Shown here: one piece after another, positions 3,748-20,851 of the stretch | How the letters are laid out: each line of letters opens with the position of its first letter | Position numbering within the stretch: position 1 is the stretch's first letter | From: Allosphingosinicella vermicomposti | GTDB lineage: Bacteria > Pseudomonadota > Alphaproteobacteria > Sphingomonadales > Sphingomonadaceae | Length of the DNA stretch: 64,000 nucleotides | Assembly (NCBI RefSeq): GCF_003012815.1 | Contig: NZ_PXYJ01000003.1 | Location: 248,001-312,000 of the forward strand | Reading direction: 5' to 3' | Translations under genes and position numbers: made by a program | The notes under the pieces: model-generated | Told to the model about the DNA's origin: nothing | Database searches by the model: none | The model's input: the letters and a program-made list of their open reading frames with translations, nothing else

Positions 3748-4617
3748 ATGATGAGGGAGAGGCCGTTGAAATCGATCGCTCTGTTAATCGCAAGCCTTGT
3801 TTCAGCACCGGCGGCACAGGCCTTGCCATCTCCCGTGGAAGCGAAGCTCAGCCCATGGATACAGCGGCTGAAGACGGTCGAGGTTATGATCGACGGACAT
3901 CCCGCGAAAATGCTTTTCGATTCCGGCGGCGCGGTGACATTGGTCACGCCTGCTTTTGCCAAGAAGATCGGCTGCGATCCCTATGGGCGGCTGACCGGGT
4001 TCAACATGGCAGGTACGCCGGGTTATCCGAAGAAATGCGGTCAACGCGAGATCAGGATCGGTGCCTACAAGACTCGTATCGACCTTCTCTCCGGCGACAA
4101 TTTGGGCCCGCCCGGAGCGCCGGAGATTGACGGTATATTATCGCTTGATGCCTTTGCGGACCAAAAGCTGACCATCGATTTGAGCGGGGACCGGATTGTC
4201 ATCGAAACCGAGGCCTCTCTTCAAAAAAGGGTCGGAAACAGGCCGCCCGTTCCCATCCGCATCATGCGCGCGATGGGCGGTTTGGGCCTCACAACCTTCG
4301 CAAAGGTCCAGGGCCCGAAAGGGGATTTGTGGTTTCTGATCGATTCGAACAATCAAGCGCGGACGCGCGTTTCCCCGGGCGCGTTGGAAGAATTCGGCAT
4401 CGCCGGCAATGTCGTCAGCGAGGCCGTCGCAAATGTCAAGACCATCCCGCTCGACATCAGGATCGAGGGCGTCGAGGAAGGGCCGACGGACGTGGCGCCC
4501 AAGGACATCATCTATGATGGCGTACTGAACGAACGTTTTGTCTACTGGCACAACGTGACGCTCGACCTGAAAGAGAAAAGGGCCTGGTACGTCTTCGATC
4601 CCAAATCCGAACTGTAG
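3748..4617 (+). CDS. Secreted retropepsin-like (clan AA) aspartic protease family protein
   Basis: A 289-residue protein with a signal peptide (KSIALLIASLVSAPAAQA). MLFDSGGAVTLV (residues 55-66, Asp58) resembles the catalytic DTG loop of retropepsin-like proteases, and IDGILSLDAF (128-136) matches the second conserved block of that fold. A second lobe has LWFLIDSNNQARTRVS (Asp199), where the Gly after Asp-Ser is replaced by Asn, so this half may be inactive. The start is uncertain: no ribosome site precedes the ATG at 3748, whereas AGGGAGAGG lies just before an in-frame TTG at 3766. Likely periplasmic; substrate unknown. Confidence 0.72.
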   Translation: MMRERPLKSIALLIASLVSAPAAQALPSPVEAKLSPWIQRLKTVEVMIDGHPAKMLFDSGGAVTLVTPAFAKKIGCDPYGRLTGFNMAGTPGYPKKCGQREIRIGAYKTRIDLLSGDNLGPPGAPEIDGILSLDAFADQKLTIDLSGDRIVIETEASLQKRVGNRPPVPIRIMRAMGGLGLTTFAKVQGPKGDLWFLIDSNNQARTRVSPGALEEFGIAGNVVSEAVANVKTIPLDIRIEGVEEGPTDVAPKDIIYDGVLNERFVYWHNVTLDLKEKRAWYVFDPKSEL

Positions 4618-15992: not shown

Positions 15993-16080
15993 CGTCATTG
16001 CGAGCATAGCGAAGCAATCCAGCGGCTCGGGGTTGGCCGCAGGGTGGATTGCTTCGTCGCTACGCCCCTCGCGATGACGA
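15993..16080. repeat. Palindromic repeat, CGTCATTGCGAG family
   Basis: CGTCATTGCGAGCATAGCGAAGCAATCCA on the left mirrors TGGATTGCTTCGTCGC...CTCGCGATGACG on the right. It lies between the membrane protein gene and ribD. Confidence 0.87.
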
Positions 16081-16095: not shown

Positions 16096-17076
16096 GTGAT
16101 GGATGATGAAGGCTGGATGAAGTCCGCCATAGCGCTTGGGGCGGAAGCGCGGGGGACGACGGCGCCCAATCCCAATGTCGGCTGCGTGATCGTGAAGGAC
16201 GGGCGGGCCGTTGGTCATGGCCGCACCCAGCCCGGCGGCCGCCCTCATGCCGAAGCGGTGGCGCTGGAGCGGGCGGGCGTCGAGGCGGAAGGCGCCACGA
16301 TCTATGTCTCACTCGAACCGTGCGCGCATGACAGCGCGCGGGGCCCGGCCTGTGCCGACCTGCTTGTCGCGGCGCGACCGGCGCGCGTGGTGATCGCGGC
16401 GACGGACCCCGATCCGCGCACCAACGGCAGGGGCGCCGCACGGCTTCGCGAGGCCGGTATCGAGGTTGAAACCGGCATCCTAGCCGATGAGGCCAAAGCG
16501 GGGATGGAAGGCTTCTTTTCCCGCATCATTCAGGGGCGGCCCTTCGTCACCCTGAAGCTTGCCATGTCATTGGACGGCAAGATCGCACTGCCCTCGGGCG
16601 AGAGTAAATGGATTACCGGGGAGGATGCGCGGCGCCACGTCCATGAGGTGCGCGCGCAGAGCGACATGATCCTCGTCGGGCGCGGCACATTGCTTGCAGA
16701 CGACCCGAAATTGAACGTGCGCCTGCCGGGCCTCGAAGACCGCTCGCCGCGCAAGGCGCTGCTGACGCGTGGCGAGGCGCCGGAGGGCTGGACCGGCCTT
16801 TCCGGTCCCGAGGCGATATTCGATCTTGGCGACGTCAACGATCTGCTCGTCGAGGGCGGATCGGGCGCGGCGTCGGCTTTCCTCGCCGCCGATCTCGTCG
16901 ATCGCCTGCTTCTCTACCGCGCGCCGATCCTGATCGGGGAGGGCAAGTCGGCGCTGGGCTATATCGGCCTCACCAGCCTTGCCGACGCGCACCAGCGCTG
17001 GCGCTTCGACCATGCGGAGACGCTTGGCATCGACCGGCTGGAAGTCTACGAGCGCGACAGGCTTGGCCCGAGTTAG
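16096..17076 (+). CDS. ribD: Bifunctional riboflavin deaminase/reductase RibD
   Basis: Second and third steps of riboflavin synthesis. The N-terminal cytidine-deaminase-like domain has the zinc motif HAEAVAL with YVSLEPCAHDSARGPACADLL; the C-terminal reductase domain has KLAMSLDGKIALPSGESKWITGEDAR, ILVGRGTLLADDPKLNVR and LLVEGGSGAASAFL. The 326 residues are slightly shorter than the usual 360-370. First gene of the ribD-ribE-ribBX-ribH cluster. Confidence 0.96.
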   Translation: MMDDEGWMKSAIALGAEARGTTAPNPNVGCVIVKDGRAVGHGRTQPGGRPHAEAVALERAGVEAEGATIYVSLEPCAHDSARGPACADLLVAARPARVVIAATDPDPRTNGRGAARLREAGIEVETGILADEAKAGMEGFFSRIIQGRPFVTLKLAMSLDGKIALPSGESKWITGEDARRHVHEVRAQSDMILVGRGTLLADDPKLNVRLPGLEDRSPRKALLTRGEAPEGWTGLSGPEAIFDLGDVNDLLVEGGSGAASAFLAADLVDRLLLYRAPILIGEGKSALGYIGLTSLADAHQRWRFDHAETLGIDRLEVYERDRLGPS

Positions 17077-17087
17077 AATTCACGATC

Positions 17088-17156
17088 GTTCCCCGGCAAA
17101 CGCCGGGGTCCAGTTTCACAGATCTGCGCCACTGGGCTCCGGCCTTCGCCGGAGCA
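17088..17156. repeat. Palindromic repeat, CCGG-core family
   Basis: Left hairpin CCCCGGCAAACGCCGGGG, then CCAG, and right hairpin CTCCGGCCTTCGCCGGAG, with CCAG and CTGG complementary. It fills much of the ribD-ribE gap. Confidence 0.87.
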
Positions 17157-17185
17157 CTGCTTCCATAACCCAAGGTTGGTAAGAC

Positions 17186-17791
17186 ATGTTCACCGGCATC
17201 ATCACCAGCATCGGCACGATCACCGCCGCCGAGCAGAAAGGCGACCTGCGCCTGCGCATCGCCTGTTCTTATGACATGGACAGCGTCGATCTCGGCGCAT
17301 CGATCGCATGTTCGGGCGTGTGCCTGACGGTCGTGGACAAGGGGCCCGGCTGGTTCGACGTCGACCTCTCCGCCGAAACCGTATCGCGCAGCGCGCCGGG
17401 CCTGTGGACGGCCGGCAATCGCCTCAACCTGGAACGCGCGCTGAAGGTGGGTGACGAGCTTGGCGGCCATATCGTCACCGGCCATGTCGACGGCATCGGC
17501 ACCGTCGAAGGCGCGGTTGCGGTCGGCGATTCGCTGCGCATGACCGTGATCGCCGACGAAGCGCTCGCCCAATATATCGCACCGAAGGGCTCGATCACGC
17601 TGGACGGCGTCTCGCTGACCATCAACGAGGTTGAGGGGATCGCCGACGGCGTGCGCTTCGCAATCAACATCATTCCCCATACCGCGCAGCAGACGACGTT
17701 TACCGATGTAGCGCCGGGGCGAAAGCTTAATATCGAGATCGATATTCTCGCCCGGTATCTCGGCCGGATGATGGAGATGAGGGCGCAATGA
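17186..17791 (+). CDS. ribE: Riboflavin synthase, alpha chain
   Basis: Dismutates two 6,7-dimethyl-8-ribityllumazine molecules to riboflavin. The 201-residue protein has the two-fold repeat of the family: MFTGIITSIGTI ... SIACSGVCLTVVD in the first barrel and GGHIVTGHVDGIGTV ... GSITLDGVSLTINEV in the second. The symbol ribE follows Bacillus use (ribC in E. coli). Second gene of the riboflavin cluster. Confidence 0.97.
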   Translation: MFTGIITSIGTITAAEQKGDLRLRIACSYDMDSVDLGASIACSGVCLTVVDKGPGWFDVDLSAETVSRSAPGLWTAGNRLNLERALKVGDELGGHIVTGHVDGIGTVEGAVAVGDSLRMTVIADEALAQYIAPKGSITLDGVSLTINEVEGIADGVRFAINIIPHTAQQTTFTDVAPGRKLNIEIDILARYLGRMMEMRAQ

Positions 17792-17797
17792 CCCGTC

Positions 17798-17910
17798 CCG
17801 TTCGTGCTGAGTAGGGACTGAGCGAAGCCGAAGGCCCGTATCGAAGCATCTCGTGCTAAACCCTTCGATACGCCGTTTCGGCAAGCTCAACAGCTACTCA
17901 GGGCGAATGG
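17798..17910. repeat. Palindromic repeat, CCGTTCG...CGAACGG family (long form)
   Basis: CCGTTCGTGCTGAGTAGGG on the left against CTACTCAGGGCGAATGG on the right, with inner arms around CGTATCGAAG and CTTCGATACG. 113 bp, starting 7 bp past the ribE stop. The copy at 44738-44863 has the same long architecture. Confidence 0.87.
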
Positions 17911-17915
17911 ACAGA

Positions 17916-17956
17916 GTGATGTGATTAACTATTGTGTCATCACATTGCAATGTGAT
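17916..17956. promoter_or_regulatory. Putative operator upstream of the HTH-RibB gene
   Basis: ATCACATTGCAATGTGAT at 17939-17956 is a perfect 18-bp palindrome ending 11 bp before the ATG at 17968. A third copy of the half-site TGTGAT lies at 17920-17925, and GTGATG (17916) pairs with CATCAC (17938). No FMN riboswitch was recognised here. The downstream gene encodes an HTH domain, so self-binding is a reasonable hypothesis. Confidence 0.6.
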
Positions 17957-17967
17957 AGCGGGCTTCA

Positions 17968-19254
17968 ATGAGCACGATATTGATCGACAAGGTTCTCGAC
18001 CTCGTCACCAACGGCGGCATGTCCCGCTCGGGCCTTGCCCGGGCGGCGGGCCTTCACCCCAATTCGCTGCGCAAGCTCGGCGATTCCGACTGGAATCCGA
18101 CGGCCGACACCTTGTTGAAGCTGGAGAAATTCCTCGCCAGCGGCACCTATGGCGTGATGGCGACGCCCGAGCAGATTATCGACGAGGCGCGGAACGGGCG
18201 CATGTTCATCCTTGTCGACGATGACGACCGGGAAAATGAAGGCGACCTCGTCATCCCGGCGCAGATGGCGACGCCGGACGCGATCAACTTCATGGCGAAG
18301 CATGGCCGCGGCCTCATCTGCCTCGCCCTTTCCAAGGGCCGTGTCGATCAGCTCGGCCTTGGCCTCATGTCACGCAACAATGGCACGCGGCACGAAACCG
18401 CCTTCACCACATCGATCGAGGCGCGGGACGGCGTCACCACCGGCATTTCCGCCGCCGACCGCGCGCGGACCATCTCGGTCGCCATCGATGCGTCGAAGGG
18501 GCCGGAGCATATCGTGACACCCGGCCATGTCTTCCCGCTCGTCGCGCGCGAAGGCGGCGTGCTGGTCCGCGCGGGGCATACCGAAGCGGCGGTGGACGTG
18601 TCCCGCCTCGCGGGGCTCAATCCGTCGGGTGTGATCTGCGAGATCATGCGCGAGGACGGGACGATGGCGCGCATGGACGACCTCATCGAATTCGCACAGC
18701 TTCACGGCCTCAAGATCGGCACGATCCGCGATTTGATTGCCTATCGCCTCAAGAAGGATCACCTTGTCGAGCAGACCGCAGAGGCGCCGTTCGAAAGCCA
18801 GTGGGGCGGCACCTGGACGGCGAAGAGCTTCCTCAACAAGGCGACCGGCATCGAACAGATCGCGCTGGTCAAAGGCCGCATCGATCCTGACACGCCGACG
18901 CTCGTGCGCATGCACGCGCTCAGCATGTTCTCCGATGCTTTTGCCGAGAACGATCCGCGTTCGGGGCTGCTTCAGGGCGCGATGAAGGCGATTGCCGAGG
19001 AAGGCGCGGGCGTGATCGTCGTTATCAACCGTCCCTTGTCCAATGCCTTGTCGAACGAGCTCAACAAGCGCGCCGGTAAGGAGACGATACAGGATAGCGA
19101 GCAGCTGCGCGATTATGGCGTCGGCGCGCAGATCCTGTCCGCGCTCGGCGTGCATGAAATGGTGCTCCTCACCAACACCCATCATACGCCCGTGGCCCTT
19201 GGCGGCTACGGCCTCTCCATCATCGGCGAACGGCCGATTCCCCTGAAAGGCTGA
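17968..19254 (+). CDS. ribB: HTH-fused 3,4-dihydroxy-2-butanone 4-phosphate synthase with degenerate GTP cyclohydrolase II domain (RibBX)
   Basis: A three-part 428-residue protein. Residues about 8-58 form a helix-turn-helix of Cro/XRE appearance ([39 protein letters not shown]). Residues 64-265 are DHBP synthase with [12 protein letters not shown] (84-95), GLICLAL, and [14 protein letters not shown], all active-site regions. Residues about 268-428 align with GTP cyclohydrolase II but lack its zinc cysteines: HSECLTGD reads HALSMFSD and LRCDCG reads ENDPRSG. It should therefore supply the DHBP branch only; GTP cyclohydrolase II must be encoded elsewhere. RibB-RibX hybrids are known; the HTH fusion is the unusual part. 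Confidence 0.93.
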
Positions 19255-19258
19255 TCCC

Positions 19259-19678
19259 ATGGCGAAATTGCTCATCGTCGAAGCGCGCTTCTACGACCAT
19301 CTGAACGACATGCTGCTCGACGGCGCGCGTACCGCGATCGAGGAAGCTGGGCATGCTCACGATACGGTGACCGTCCCCGGCGCGCTCGAAGTGCCGGGCG
19401 CCATCGCGCTTGCTGCCGAAACCGGCCGCTATGACGGCTATGTCGCGCTTGGCGTCGTGATCCGCGGCGAAACCTATCATTTCGAAATTGTCGCGAACGA
19501 AAGCGCGCGCGGGATCATGGCGCTAACCATGGACGGCATCGCCATCGGCAATGGCATCCTGACGGTCGAAGACGAAGCCCAAGCCCTCGCCCGCGCCAGC
19601 CGCCAAGTGAAGGACAAGGGTGGCGAAGCGGCAAAGGCGGCGCTCGCGATGATGAAGCTAAAAGAGAAGTTCTCCTGA
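19259..19678 (+). CDS. ribH: 6,7-dimethyl-8-ribityllumazine synthase
   Basis: Condenses the RibB product with the RibD-branch pyrimidine. The 139-residue protein has [35 protein letters not shown] (with the catalytic His) and [21 protein letters not shown]. Length is typical. It starts 4 bp after the ribB stop, so the two are probably coupled. Last gene of the riboflavin cluster. Confidence 0.97.
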
Positions 19679-19680
19679 GT

Positions 19681-19749
19681 TGCTCCCCGGCGAAAGCCGG
19701 GGTCCAGCCGCTCGGACCGTACCGCTGGGCTCCGGCTTTCGCCGGAGCA
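19681..19749. repeat. Palindromic repeat, CCGG-core family
   Basis: CCCCGGCGAAAGCCGGGG and CTCCGGCTTTCGCCGGAG hairpins with GTCCAGC/GCTGGGC between them. It starts 2 bp after the ribH stop and separates it from the convergent Old Yellow Enzyme gene. Confidence 0.9.
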
Positions 19750-19759
19750 CAAAGGAGGT

Positions 19760-20851
19760 TTACGCAGCCACCGCCGCTTCGGCCTCCGGATAGTCGATAT
19801 AGCCTTCGGGCCCCTGAGTGTACCAGGTCGACTGATCGTCCTTCGCCCAGTCCGCGCCGCATTCGATCCGGCGGGGCAAGTCCGGATTGGAAATGAACGG
19901 ACGACCGAAGCTGATCGCATCGGCGACACCGTCATCCAGGGCCGCCTGCGCGCGCTCGGCATTATAATCCGAATTGAGGACGAGAGGGCCGTTGAAGACC
20001 TTACGGATTTCCGGCGCGATCGGCGGCAATTCGCCTTTGCCATAGGTGCCGTCGAGCGGCGGTTCGCGAAGCTCGAGGAAGGCGATGCCGATTTCGTTCA
20101 GCATCTCCGCCGCTGCGGTGAAGAGCGGCACCGGATCGCTGTCGTTCACGCCTTGTGATTCCCCATTTGGCGATAGGCGAACCGCCGTGCGCTCCGGCCC
20201 CACCACGTCGGCAATGGCGCGTGTTGCCTGGCGGAGCAGGCGGATGCGGTTTTCGATCGGGCCGCCATAATCGTCGTCGCGATGATTGCTGCCGTCGCGC
20301 AGGAACTGGTCGATCAGATAGCCATTGGCGGCGTGAAGCTGCACGCCGTCGAAGCCAGCGGCGATCGCGTAGCCCGCCGCCCGCGCATAATCGTCGAGGA
20401 GATCCGGGATTTCGTCCAATTCCAGCGCCCGCGCTTCTTCATAAGGTTGGCGGCCGTCATAGGTATGCGCCTTGTAAGGGGCTGTGGTCGCGGACGCCGA
20501 AACCGGCTTCTCGCCGTCGAGGAAGCTCGGATGGACAAGGCGGCCCATATGCCAGAGCTGGCTGAAGATGCGGCCGCCCGCTTCGTGCACGGCTTCCGTG
20601 ATCGGCTTCCACGCCTCCACCTGCTCCATCGTCCACAGGCCCGGCGCATAGGGCCAGCCAAGGCCTTGGCGGCTGATTCCCGTCGCCTCGCTGATGATGA
20701 GGCCCGCGCCCGCGCGCTGGGTGTAATAGGTTTTCATAATCTCGGTCGGCACATGTTCCCGCGTCGCCCGGGCGCGCGTCAGGGGGGCCATGACGATGCG
20801 GTTGGGCGCCGTCACCGCGCCGAAGGAAATGGGATCGAACAGCGAGGACAA
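19760..20851 (-). CDS. Old Yellow Enzyme family alkene reductase
   Basis: FMN-dependent ene-reductase of 363 residues, acting on activated alkenes such as enones or nitro compounds. Signatures: APNRIVMAPLTRARA at the N-terminus, LWHMGRLVHPS, FDGVQLHAANGYLIDQFLRDGSNHRDDDYGG with the substrate-binding His-Asn pair, RLSPNGESQG and ISFGRPFISNPDLPRRI. NemA, OYE and morphinone reductase are related; the physiological substrate is unclear. Convergent with ribH. Confidence 0.93.
   Translation of the reverse strand: MSSLFDPISFGAVTAPNRIVMAPLTRARATREHVPTEIMKTYYTQRAGAGLIISEATGISRQGLGWPYAPGLWTMEQVEAWKPITEAVHEAGGRIFSQLWHMGRLVHPSFLDGEKPVSASATTAPYKAHTYDGRQPYEEARALELDEIPDLLDDYARAAGYAIAAGFDGVQLHAANGYLIDQFLRDGSNHRDDDYGGPIENRIRLLRQATRAIADVVGPERTAVRLSPNGESQGVNDSDPVPLFTAAAEMLNEIGIAFLELREPPLDGTYGKGELPPIAPEIRKVFNGPLVLNSDYNAERAQAALDDGVADAISFGRPFISNPDLPRRIECGADWAKDDQSTWYTQGPEGYIDYPEAEAAVAA

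Follow-up and report, generated by a model that had tools for sequence, protein, structure and literature searches.

The window analyzed here, a stretch of 64,000 nucleotides of the Allosphingosinicella vermicomposti genome, carries a cluster of riboflavin biosynthesis genes in the order ribD-ribE-[176 bp]-HTH-ribBX-ribH. The genes and the control elements proposed for them are as follows:

16096..17076, plus strand: ribD, first in the cluster, without a copy of the palindrome at up to three mismatches
17186..17791, plus strand: ribE (riboflavin synthase), upstream of ribBX
17908..17925, no strand: O2 position, putative operator, 31 bp upstream of O1
17932..17937, plus strand: candidate -35 element TTGTGT, proposed from base frequencies in 99 loci
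17939-17956, no strand: O1, putative operator, perfect 18-bp palindrome ATCACATTGCAATGTGAT, 11 bp before the ATG
17955..17961, plus strand: candidate -10 region, 17-18 bp after the -35 and weak in the window
17968-19254, plus strand: HTH-ribB-ribX gene, 428 aa
17968..18144, plus strand: Cro-like HTH domain, from profile matches and a model
19259..19678, plus strand: ribH (lumazine synthase), starting 4 bp after ribBX

The 176-bp gap between ribE and ribBX contains the promoter-like elements and the putative operators; ribH, which lies on the same strand within 1.5 kb of ribBX in 96 of the 110 loci with flanking sequence, is presumably under the same promoter. Two similar intergenic stretches with inverted repeats (17083-17170 and 19687-19755; CCCCGGC...GCCGGGG and GGCTCCGGC...GCCGGAGC) flank ribE-ribBX-ribH, and a different inverted repeat, GAAGCAATCC...GGATTGCTTC, is found at about 16010-16060; these look like dispersed extragenic palindromes. 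The end of the cluster adjoins an FMN-dependent Old Yellow Enzyme-type gene (19760-20851, minus strand; Oxidored_FMN, E 2.2e-71) that is convergent with ribH.

A reading made from the sequence only had described the gene at the ribB position as an HTH joined to DHBP synthase. This is borne out by the 428-aa frame, in which an HTH (residues about 1-59) precedes a DHBP synthase domain (residues 68-259; Pfam E 5.3e-83) and a degenerate GTP-cyclohydrolase-II-like RibX domain (residues 269-422); a full-length structure model, poor in the RibB domain (pLDDT <50 at 115-204), was set aside. RibBX was reportedly described by Brutinel et al. in 2013 as a fusion of RibB with a degenerate GCH II domain. 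In RibA, cysteines serve as zinc ligands. The window RibX has no cysteine among the residues shown at the three RibA cysteine columns, and across 152 aligned rows cysteine is absent from the six commonest residues of each of these columns, one of which consists mostly of gaps. A. vermicomposti encodes its own RibA elsewhere in the genome. The loss of the RibA cysteines and the separate RibA together mark the protein as a RibBX, which by its sequence combines RibB with a GCH II-like domain devoid of zinc ligands, to which an HTH has been added.

Individual profile and fold matches of this HTH are weak, with Pfam below the cut-off and Foldseek above E 0.001. HTH_3 matches the whole window protein at E 0.062 and a 66-aa piece of it at 0.0014, under the curated cut-off. 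Across 104 HTH-bearing relatives, 77 match HTH_3 (E up to 1; best 4.1e-7) and 96 match phrog_8, a phage regulator family (E up to 1; best 1.3e-6), and G28, L29, H30, N32, L34, R35, W42, N43, P44, and T48 are invariant. Over the set as a whole, the domain conforms to HTH_3-type profiles and is, by sequence, an XRE/Cro-C1 HTH. Its AlphaFold model (pLDDT 84) has three called helices, compared with the five of the XRE/Cro-C1 fold, the recognition helix not being among them. Nearly all of the structural matches, among the 50 of 318 listed, are Cro/C1-type regulators (TM about 0.6; best E 0.14), and none of those listed reaches E 0.001 or lower; the model thus resembles these regulators at low significance.

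RibBX-like proteins were found in 145 of 149 genomes in a search of the family. The HTH profile matches 117 of the 149, and in 115 of these the matching frame is 336 aa or longer and was counted as a fusion. In two genomes (G017 and G010) the HTH occurs in a short frame only, and in two others (G021 and G036) a short frame occurs besides the fusion. The best 80 of 585 candidate loci from named organisms show the fusion in Sphingomonas, Sphingobium, Sphingosinicella, Blastomonas, Novosphingobium, and others. The 15 strong HTH matches in a phylum sample of 398 genomes are all in the family, with 11 others at E 4.7e-4 or worse, and the four strong matches in a class sample of 385 genomes are likewise all in family genomes. 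Seven weaker matches in the class sample (7e-10 to 3e-5; L236-L242) lie outside the family, and none is an HTH-RibBX where readable: L236, L237, and L241 look Cro-like, L238, L240, and L242 resemble ordinary XRE proteins, and the frame of L239 is not clear. A plasmid collection gave no match.

Upstream of the gene, the sequence-only reading had noted a perfect palindrome ending 11 bp before the start and a third TGTGAT half-site further up. Both are present, at 17939-17956 and 17920-17925; from the half-site to the right half of the palindrome the distance is 31 bp. The O2 position to which this half-site belongs has 11 of 18 letters in common with O1 and is well kept only in its right half. 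At up to three mismatches the palindrome matches once in the window and not at all in 100 shuffles, and the genome of 2,507,679 bases holds a single copy.

The site goes with the HTH. Of the 145 genomes with a match, 128 supplied the 130 ribBX loci compared (two loci each from G085 and G133), comprising 104 with the HTH and 26 lacking it (the full-length set is without the truncated L092, and A2 draws on 50 of 103). The site is present in 104 of 104 HTH-bearing loci and in 0 of 26 HTH-less ones. Under a position weight matrix trained on the same HTH-bearing loci that it scores, the lowest score in the former is 10.5 bits and the highest in the latter 0.6 bits. Counted as letters shared with the window 18-mer, the two groups (12-18 of 18 and 9-12, respectively) touch at 12 and shuffles reach maxima of 11-15 of 18, so that six HTH-bearing loci at 12 are not separable by letter count alone. 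Each of the 80 named loci, the best 80 of 585 and in part from the same species as training loci, has a site of at least 16.8 bits within 300 bp. When 485 control positions were drawn at random in the same loci, 1 had a site. Of the matches outside the 130-locus count, those of G007, G082, and G124 carry the HTH, with sites scoring 28.0, 29.5, and 26.9 bits.

On a 152-row tree built without the HTH columns and taking in 23 of 28 outgroup loci, the HTH label changes eight times, with five of the changes required by well-supported branches, and no family row that lacks the HTH has the site. The history is best read as one gain followed by several losses, on a tree whose root is uncertain, with an HTH-less family row (L130) branching early and two outgroup rows falling among family rows. 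The five independent contrasts on well-supported branches are all concordant (sign test p 0.0625), which is suggestive only. On the same tree, the RibBX of G561, from another family of the class (L245), groups inside the sphingomonad rows with the HTH-less second copies of G085 and G133; it is likely to reflect horizontal transfer of an HTH-less ribBX.

The earlier proposal of a bifunctional enzyme-repressor acting at its own putative operator gains support from this distribution, which suggests that it is the fused HTH that binds the palindrome. It could be argued instead that the palindrome belongs to a separate transcription factor and that the HTH serves dimerization or nucleoid tethering. 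We regard this as very improbable: all that speaks for it is that XRE folds in general can mediate protein contacts, and it is countered by the joint presence or absence of site and HTH in 130 loci and by the related stand-alone phage HTH described below, whose own promoter carries this operator as well and whose relatives with other recognition helices have different operator letters.

The arrangement of the sites is informative as to how such a protein might act. They cluster at two places, 9-13 bp (O1) and 40-44 bp (O2) before the start; the 48 loci in which both can be scored have them at a spacing of 29-33 bp (30-32 bp in 43 of the 48), and a distance of 31-32 bp corresponds to three turns of DNA. 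O1 reaches at least 8 bits in 108 of 184 loci, and 52 of these 108 strong-O1 loci have an exact ATGTGA half-site at a distance of 31 or 32 bp upstream of O1's right half, whereas in shuffled upstream regions and in the stretch 400-550 bp upstream no position collects three or more loci. The copy at 31 bp is absent from one HTH-ribBX control locus (L009). Three of the 104 family loci and 7 of the named set (best 80 of 585) have no 8-bit site at either standard position and carry their sites elsewhere.

In 99 aligned loci, O1 is immediately preceded by TTG and followed by TA, as would suit a promoter whose 17-bp spacer contains the putative operator. Such a geometry predicts a transcript start at or next to the ATG, and Shine-Dalgarno-like words are present before 23 of the 104 starts of HTH-ribBX, compared with 44 of 61 for the first ATG that follows the ribBX stop; we infer that the ribBX transcript may be leaderless. 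The position of O1 in the presumed promoter spacer is the placement expected of a repressor site. Alternatively, the fused HTH could be an activator of ribBX, recruiting RNA polymerase from a site upstream of the -35 in a positive feedback or in a ligand-dependent manner. The location of O2 upstream of the -35, and the fact that it outscores O1 in 78 of 184 loci, would suit such a role. However, O1 overlaps the promoter spacer and is of at least 8 bits in the majority of loci noted above, activators rarely bind between -35 and -10, and the phage counterpart is laid out like a Cro autorepressor; hence we consider activation quite unlikely and favor repression.

The exact word TCACATNNNNATGTGA occurs at 64 sites in 62 of the 149 family genomes, while a reversed control pattern has no site in the same 149 genomes, and a coordinate comparison places 60 of the 64 before HTH-ribBX. 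The 3.5 kb around ribA in the A. vermicomposti genome (L142) has no site above 4.5 bits. Taken together, the concentration of exact sites at ribBX and the siteless ribA lead us to prefer a single-target autoregulator and to reject a wider regulon. We also rejected a CRP-like site, because the half-sites TCACA-N6-TGTGA stand in inverse order to those of the CRP consensus and the site tracks the HTH. The other four exact sites are in G103, G104, G101 (in a phage-like stretch), and G017. In G103 a 29.1-bit site lies about 1.1 kb beyond ribH, away from ribBX (L144, 1929-1946), and the site of its own ribBX scores 17.5 bits. In G101, operator-like sites on contig 21 (L145, 1985-2117; 27.1 bits at 1985 and two overlapping matches of ~22 bits at 2095-2117) stand just upstream of a gene that by eye reads like a phage terminase. 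As this genome also has an HTH-ribBX, its host enzyme might read a prophage operator.

A likely provenance for the domain is indicated by G017, in which the listed RibBX matches begin after the HTH and the HTH is encoded separately as a 68-aa protein. The gene of this small protein is divergent from that of an S24-domain protein, with the S24 peptidase over the Pfam cut-off and an HTH just under it, and it lies in a 38-kb IMG/VR contig (IMGVR_UViG_2718218194_000008). Here the cI-cro switch of lambda-like phages, which uses Cro repressors, offers the natural comparison. The provirus cro promoter reads half-site ATGTGAT, 13 bp, ATCACATTCAGATGTGTT, 12 bp, ATG; that of the window reads ATGTGAT, 13 bp, ATCACATTGCAATGTGAT, 11 bp, ATG. 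The Cro of the provirus (L281, which with L275 and L285 is one stretch) shares up to 62% identity with members of HTH-RibBX across 48 residues. The provirus has two putative operator pairs, at 1161-1209 and 3940-3988, each spaced by 31 bp and 2.8 kb from each other, one of them between the S24 repressor and cro; the presence of a second pair resembles the left and right operators of lambda. The regulatory layout of a Cro, with a seemingly autoregulated promoter and phased operators, is thus matched between window and phage relative at the level of sequence. A divergent cI-type repressor, which would mark a phage gene, does not accompany the window gene, whose locus is a rib cluster, and none was seen among the ribBX neighbors read.

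The same placement recurs among stand-alone relatives of the HTH. Nine stand-alone HTH relatives were tested, with starts picked by hand and leaving out L289 (stop in the match, no site) and L238-L242. In six of the nine (L281, L283, L284, L286, L287, and L288; each p <=0.02) an O1 palindrome lies 12-14 bp before the start, and for four of these six the upstream copy that matches best stands exactly 31 bp away; in L284 it is at 48 bp (the second at 32) and in L283 at 28 bp. An arm-based test with fixed gaps found no clear O1 in L282, L237, and L236, and the palindromic-pair count over 9 in the phage upstream regions was not significant, except for L236 (1 of 200 shuffles, site 58 bp up). Operator letters vary with the recognition segment: ATCACAT occurs where the segment ends N-S/T-LR (RibBX and L281), AGCATAT or GGCATAT where it ends NTL-L/Y/N-G (L286-L288), and CGCAT/CCCAT types where it ends TTLR (L283 and L284). 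From this covariation, HTH and operator appear to belong together.

The simplest origin suggested by these sequences is that a cro gene was captured together with its control region. The reverse, in which a phage took the HTH and operators from a host ribBX, seems unlikely, though several observations lend themselves to it: the TCACAT operator type with a Cro is found in one provirus lineage only (L275/L281/L285), the phage-like stretch of G101 has sites and lacks a strong HTH match, and the L281 Cro has the identity to HTH-RibBX members given above. Against it, relatives with other operators (L284, L286, L287, and L288) share the O1 placement, so that the layout looks older than the TCACAT type; no RibBX outside the family has a strong HTH match in the class sample of 385 genomes; and the provirus encodes the HTH as an ordinary Cro next to an S24 repressor. 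The second operator position and this phage link go beyond what the sequence-only reading had proposed.

We therefore picture, as a capture from phage to host, a temperate-phage cro with its promoter and two operators that would have become fused to the host ribBX early in the sphingomonad family. The product would remain a DHBP synthase, whose dimer would present two Cro-like N-terminal domains; these would bind O1, within the promoter spacer, and O2, three helical turns further up, perhaps cooperatively, and the bound enzyme would shut off transcription of its own ribBX-ribH in a homeostatic negative feedback. We hold it quite likely that a cro unit so fused represses ribBX-ribH as an O1/O2-bound dimer. 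The enzyme probably controls its own gene, and it is probably a conserved autoregulatory enzyme-repressor of likely phage ancestry. The feedback could stand in for the FMN riboswitch. No Rfam family, the FMN riboswitch included, has a match at the gathering score in the window, which agrees with the earlier observation that the cluster has no such element, and under strict filters the FMN riboswitch (RF00050) was found in 0 of 149 family genomes as against 7 of 14 control genomes (20 candidates scored in each of the 20 genomes listed); control by this riboswitch was accordingly rejected.

Plain concentration feedback would require no ligand. BirA and archaeal RbkR, whose DNA binding is changed by a ligand, raise the prospect, touched on by the sequence-only reading for flavin and ribulose 5-phosphate, that the HTH is a ligand-gated sensor, with the RibB site responding to ribulose 5-phosphate or DHBP, or the RibX site to flavin, which would add to autorepression rather than replace it. 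We see this as a possibility short of an even chance. The HTH is fused to an enzyme of the pathway, no flavin-sensing riboswitch was found in the 149 genomes, and in Shewanella the RibB activity of RibBX is reported to be under the control of its X domain through an unknown mechanism (PMC10012899), which leaves room for allostery. Yet simple concentration feedback accounts for the data, and a Cro-like ancestor would have had no need of a ligand. The furthest-reaching version, in which a complete cro unit with two phased operators, promoter, leaderless start, and HTH, captured once onto a core vitamin enzyme, replaces the riboswitch family-wide and couples the catalytic or flavin-bound state to DNA binding, is somewhat more doubtful still; were it true, it would define a new class of flavin-pathway sensor.

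Autorepression by the enzyme offers a concrete, testable answer to how riboflavin synthesis might be regulated in a large family in whose genomes no FMN riboswitch was found. More generally, a prophage control circuit, with promoter, operators, and repressor together, has apparently been built into a housekeeping enzyme in one fusion, and the phage relatives, whose recognition helices and operators vary, provide a ready specificity series.

Elsewhere among bacteria, the FMN riboswitch controls rib genes, often ribB, according to a 2026 riboflavin review (PMC13028884), in contrast to the 149 sphingomonad-family genomes; the terms 'sphingo' and 'helix-turn-helix' are absent from the main text of that review. 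Among the matches listed from the open-licence literature, no title or abstract start is about an HTH-RibB fusion. RibBX as known elsewhere shares with the window protein RibB, a RibX without the RibA cysteines (said in PMC10012899 to bind zinc), the ribD-ribE-ribBX-ribH cluster, and a separate ribA; the passages on it in PMC10012899 speak of neither an HTH at the N-terminus nor an operator. Transcription factors acting at a riboflavin gene are described in another alphaproteobacterium, Wolbachia (PMC3518464): wBmxR1 and wBmxR2 act at ribA, where, unlike the repression proposed for RibBX, these separate, unfused proteins are reported to have a positive effect on a ribA reporter. With the phage Cro of the provirus, the window protein has in common the HTH sequence, the operator letters, the 31-bp pair, and a start 11-12 bp after O1, although phage Cro is a free small protein opposing cI, whereas the window HTH is joined to an enzyme. 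An analogy in design may be drawn with the enzyme-repressors BirA, PutA, and NadR and with archaeal RbkR, which combines an HTH with riboflavin kinase. In each, as proposed here, a single polypeptide is both a pathway enzyme and the repressor of its own pathway; HTH-RibBX differs from them in its enzyme, in its HTH family, and in apparently having a single target.
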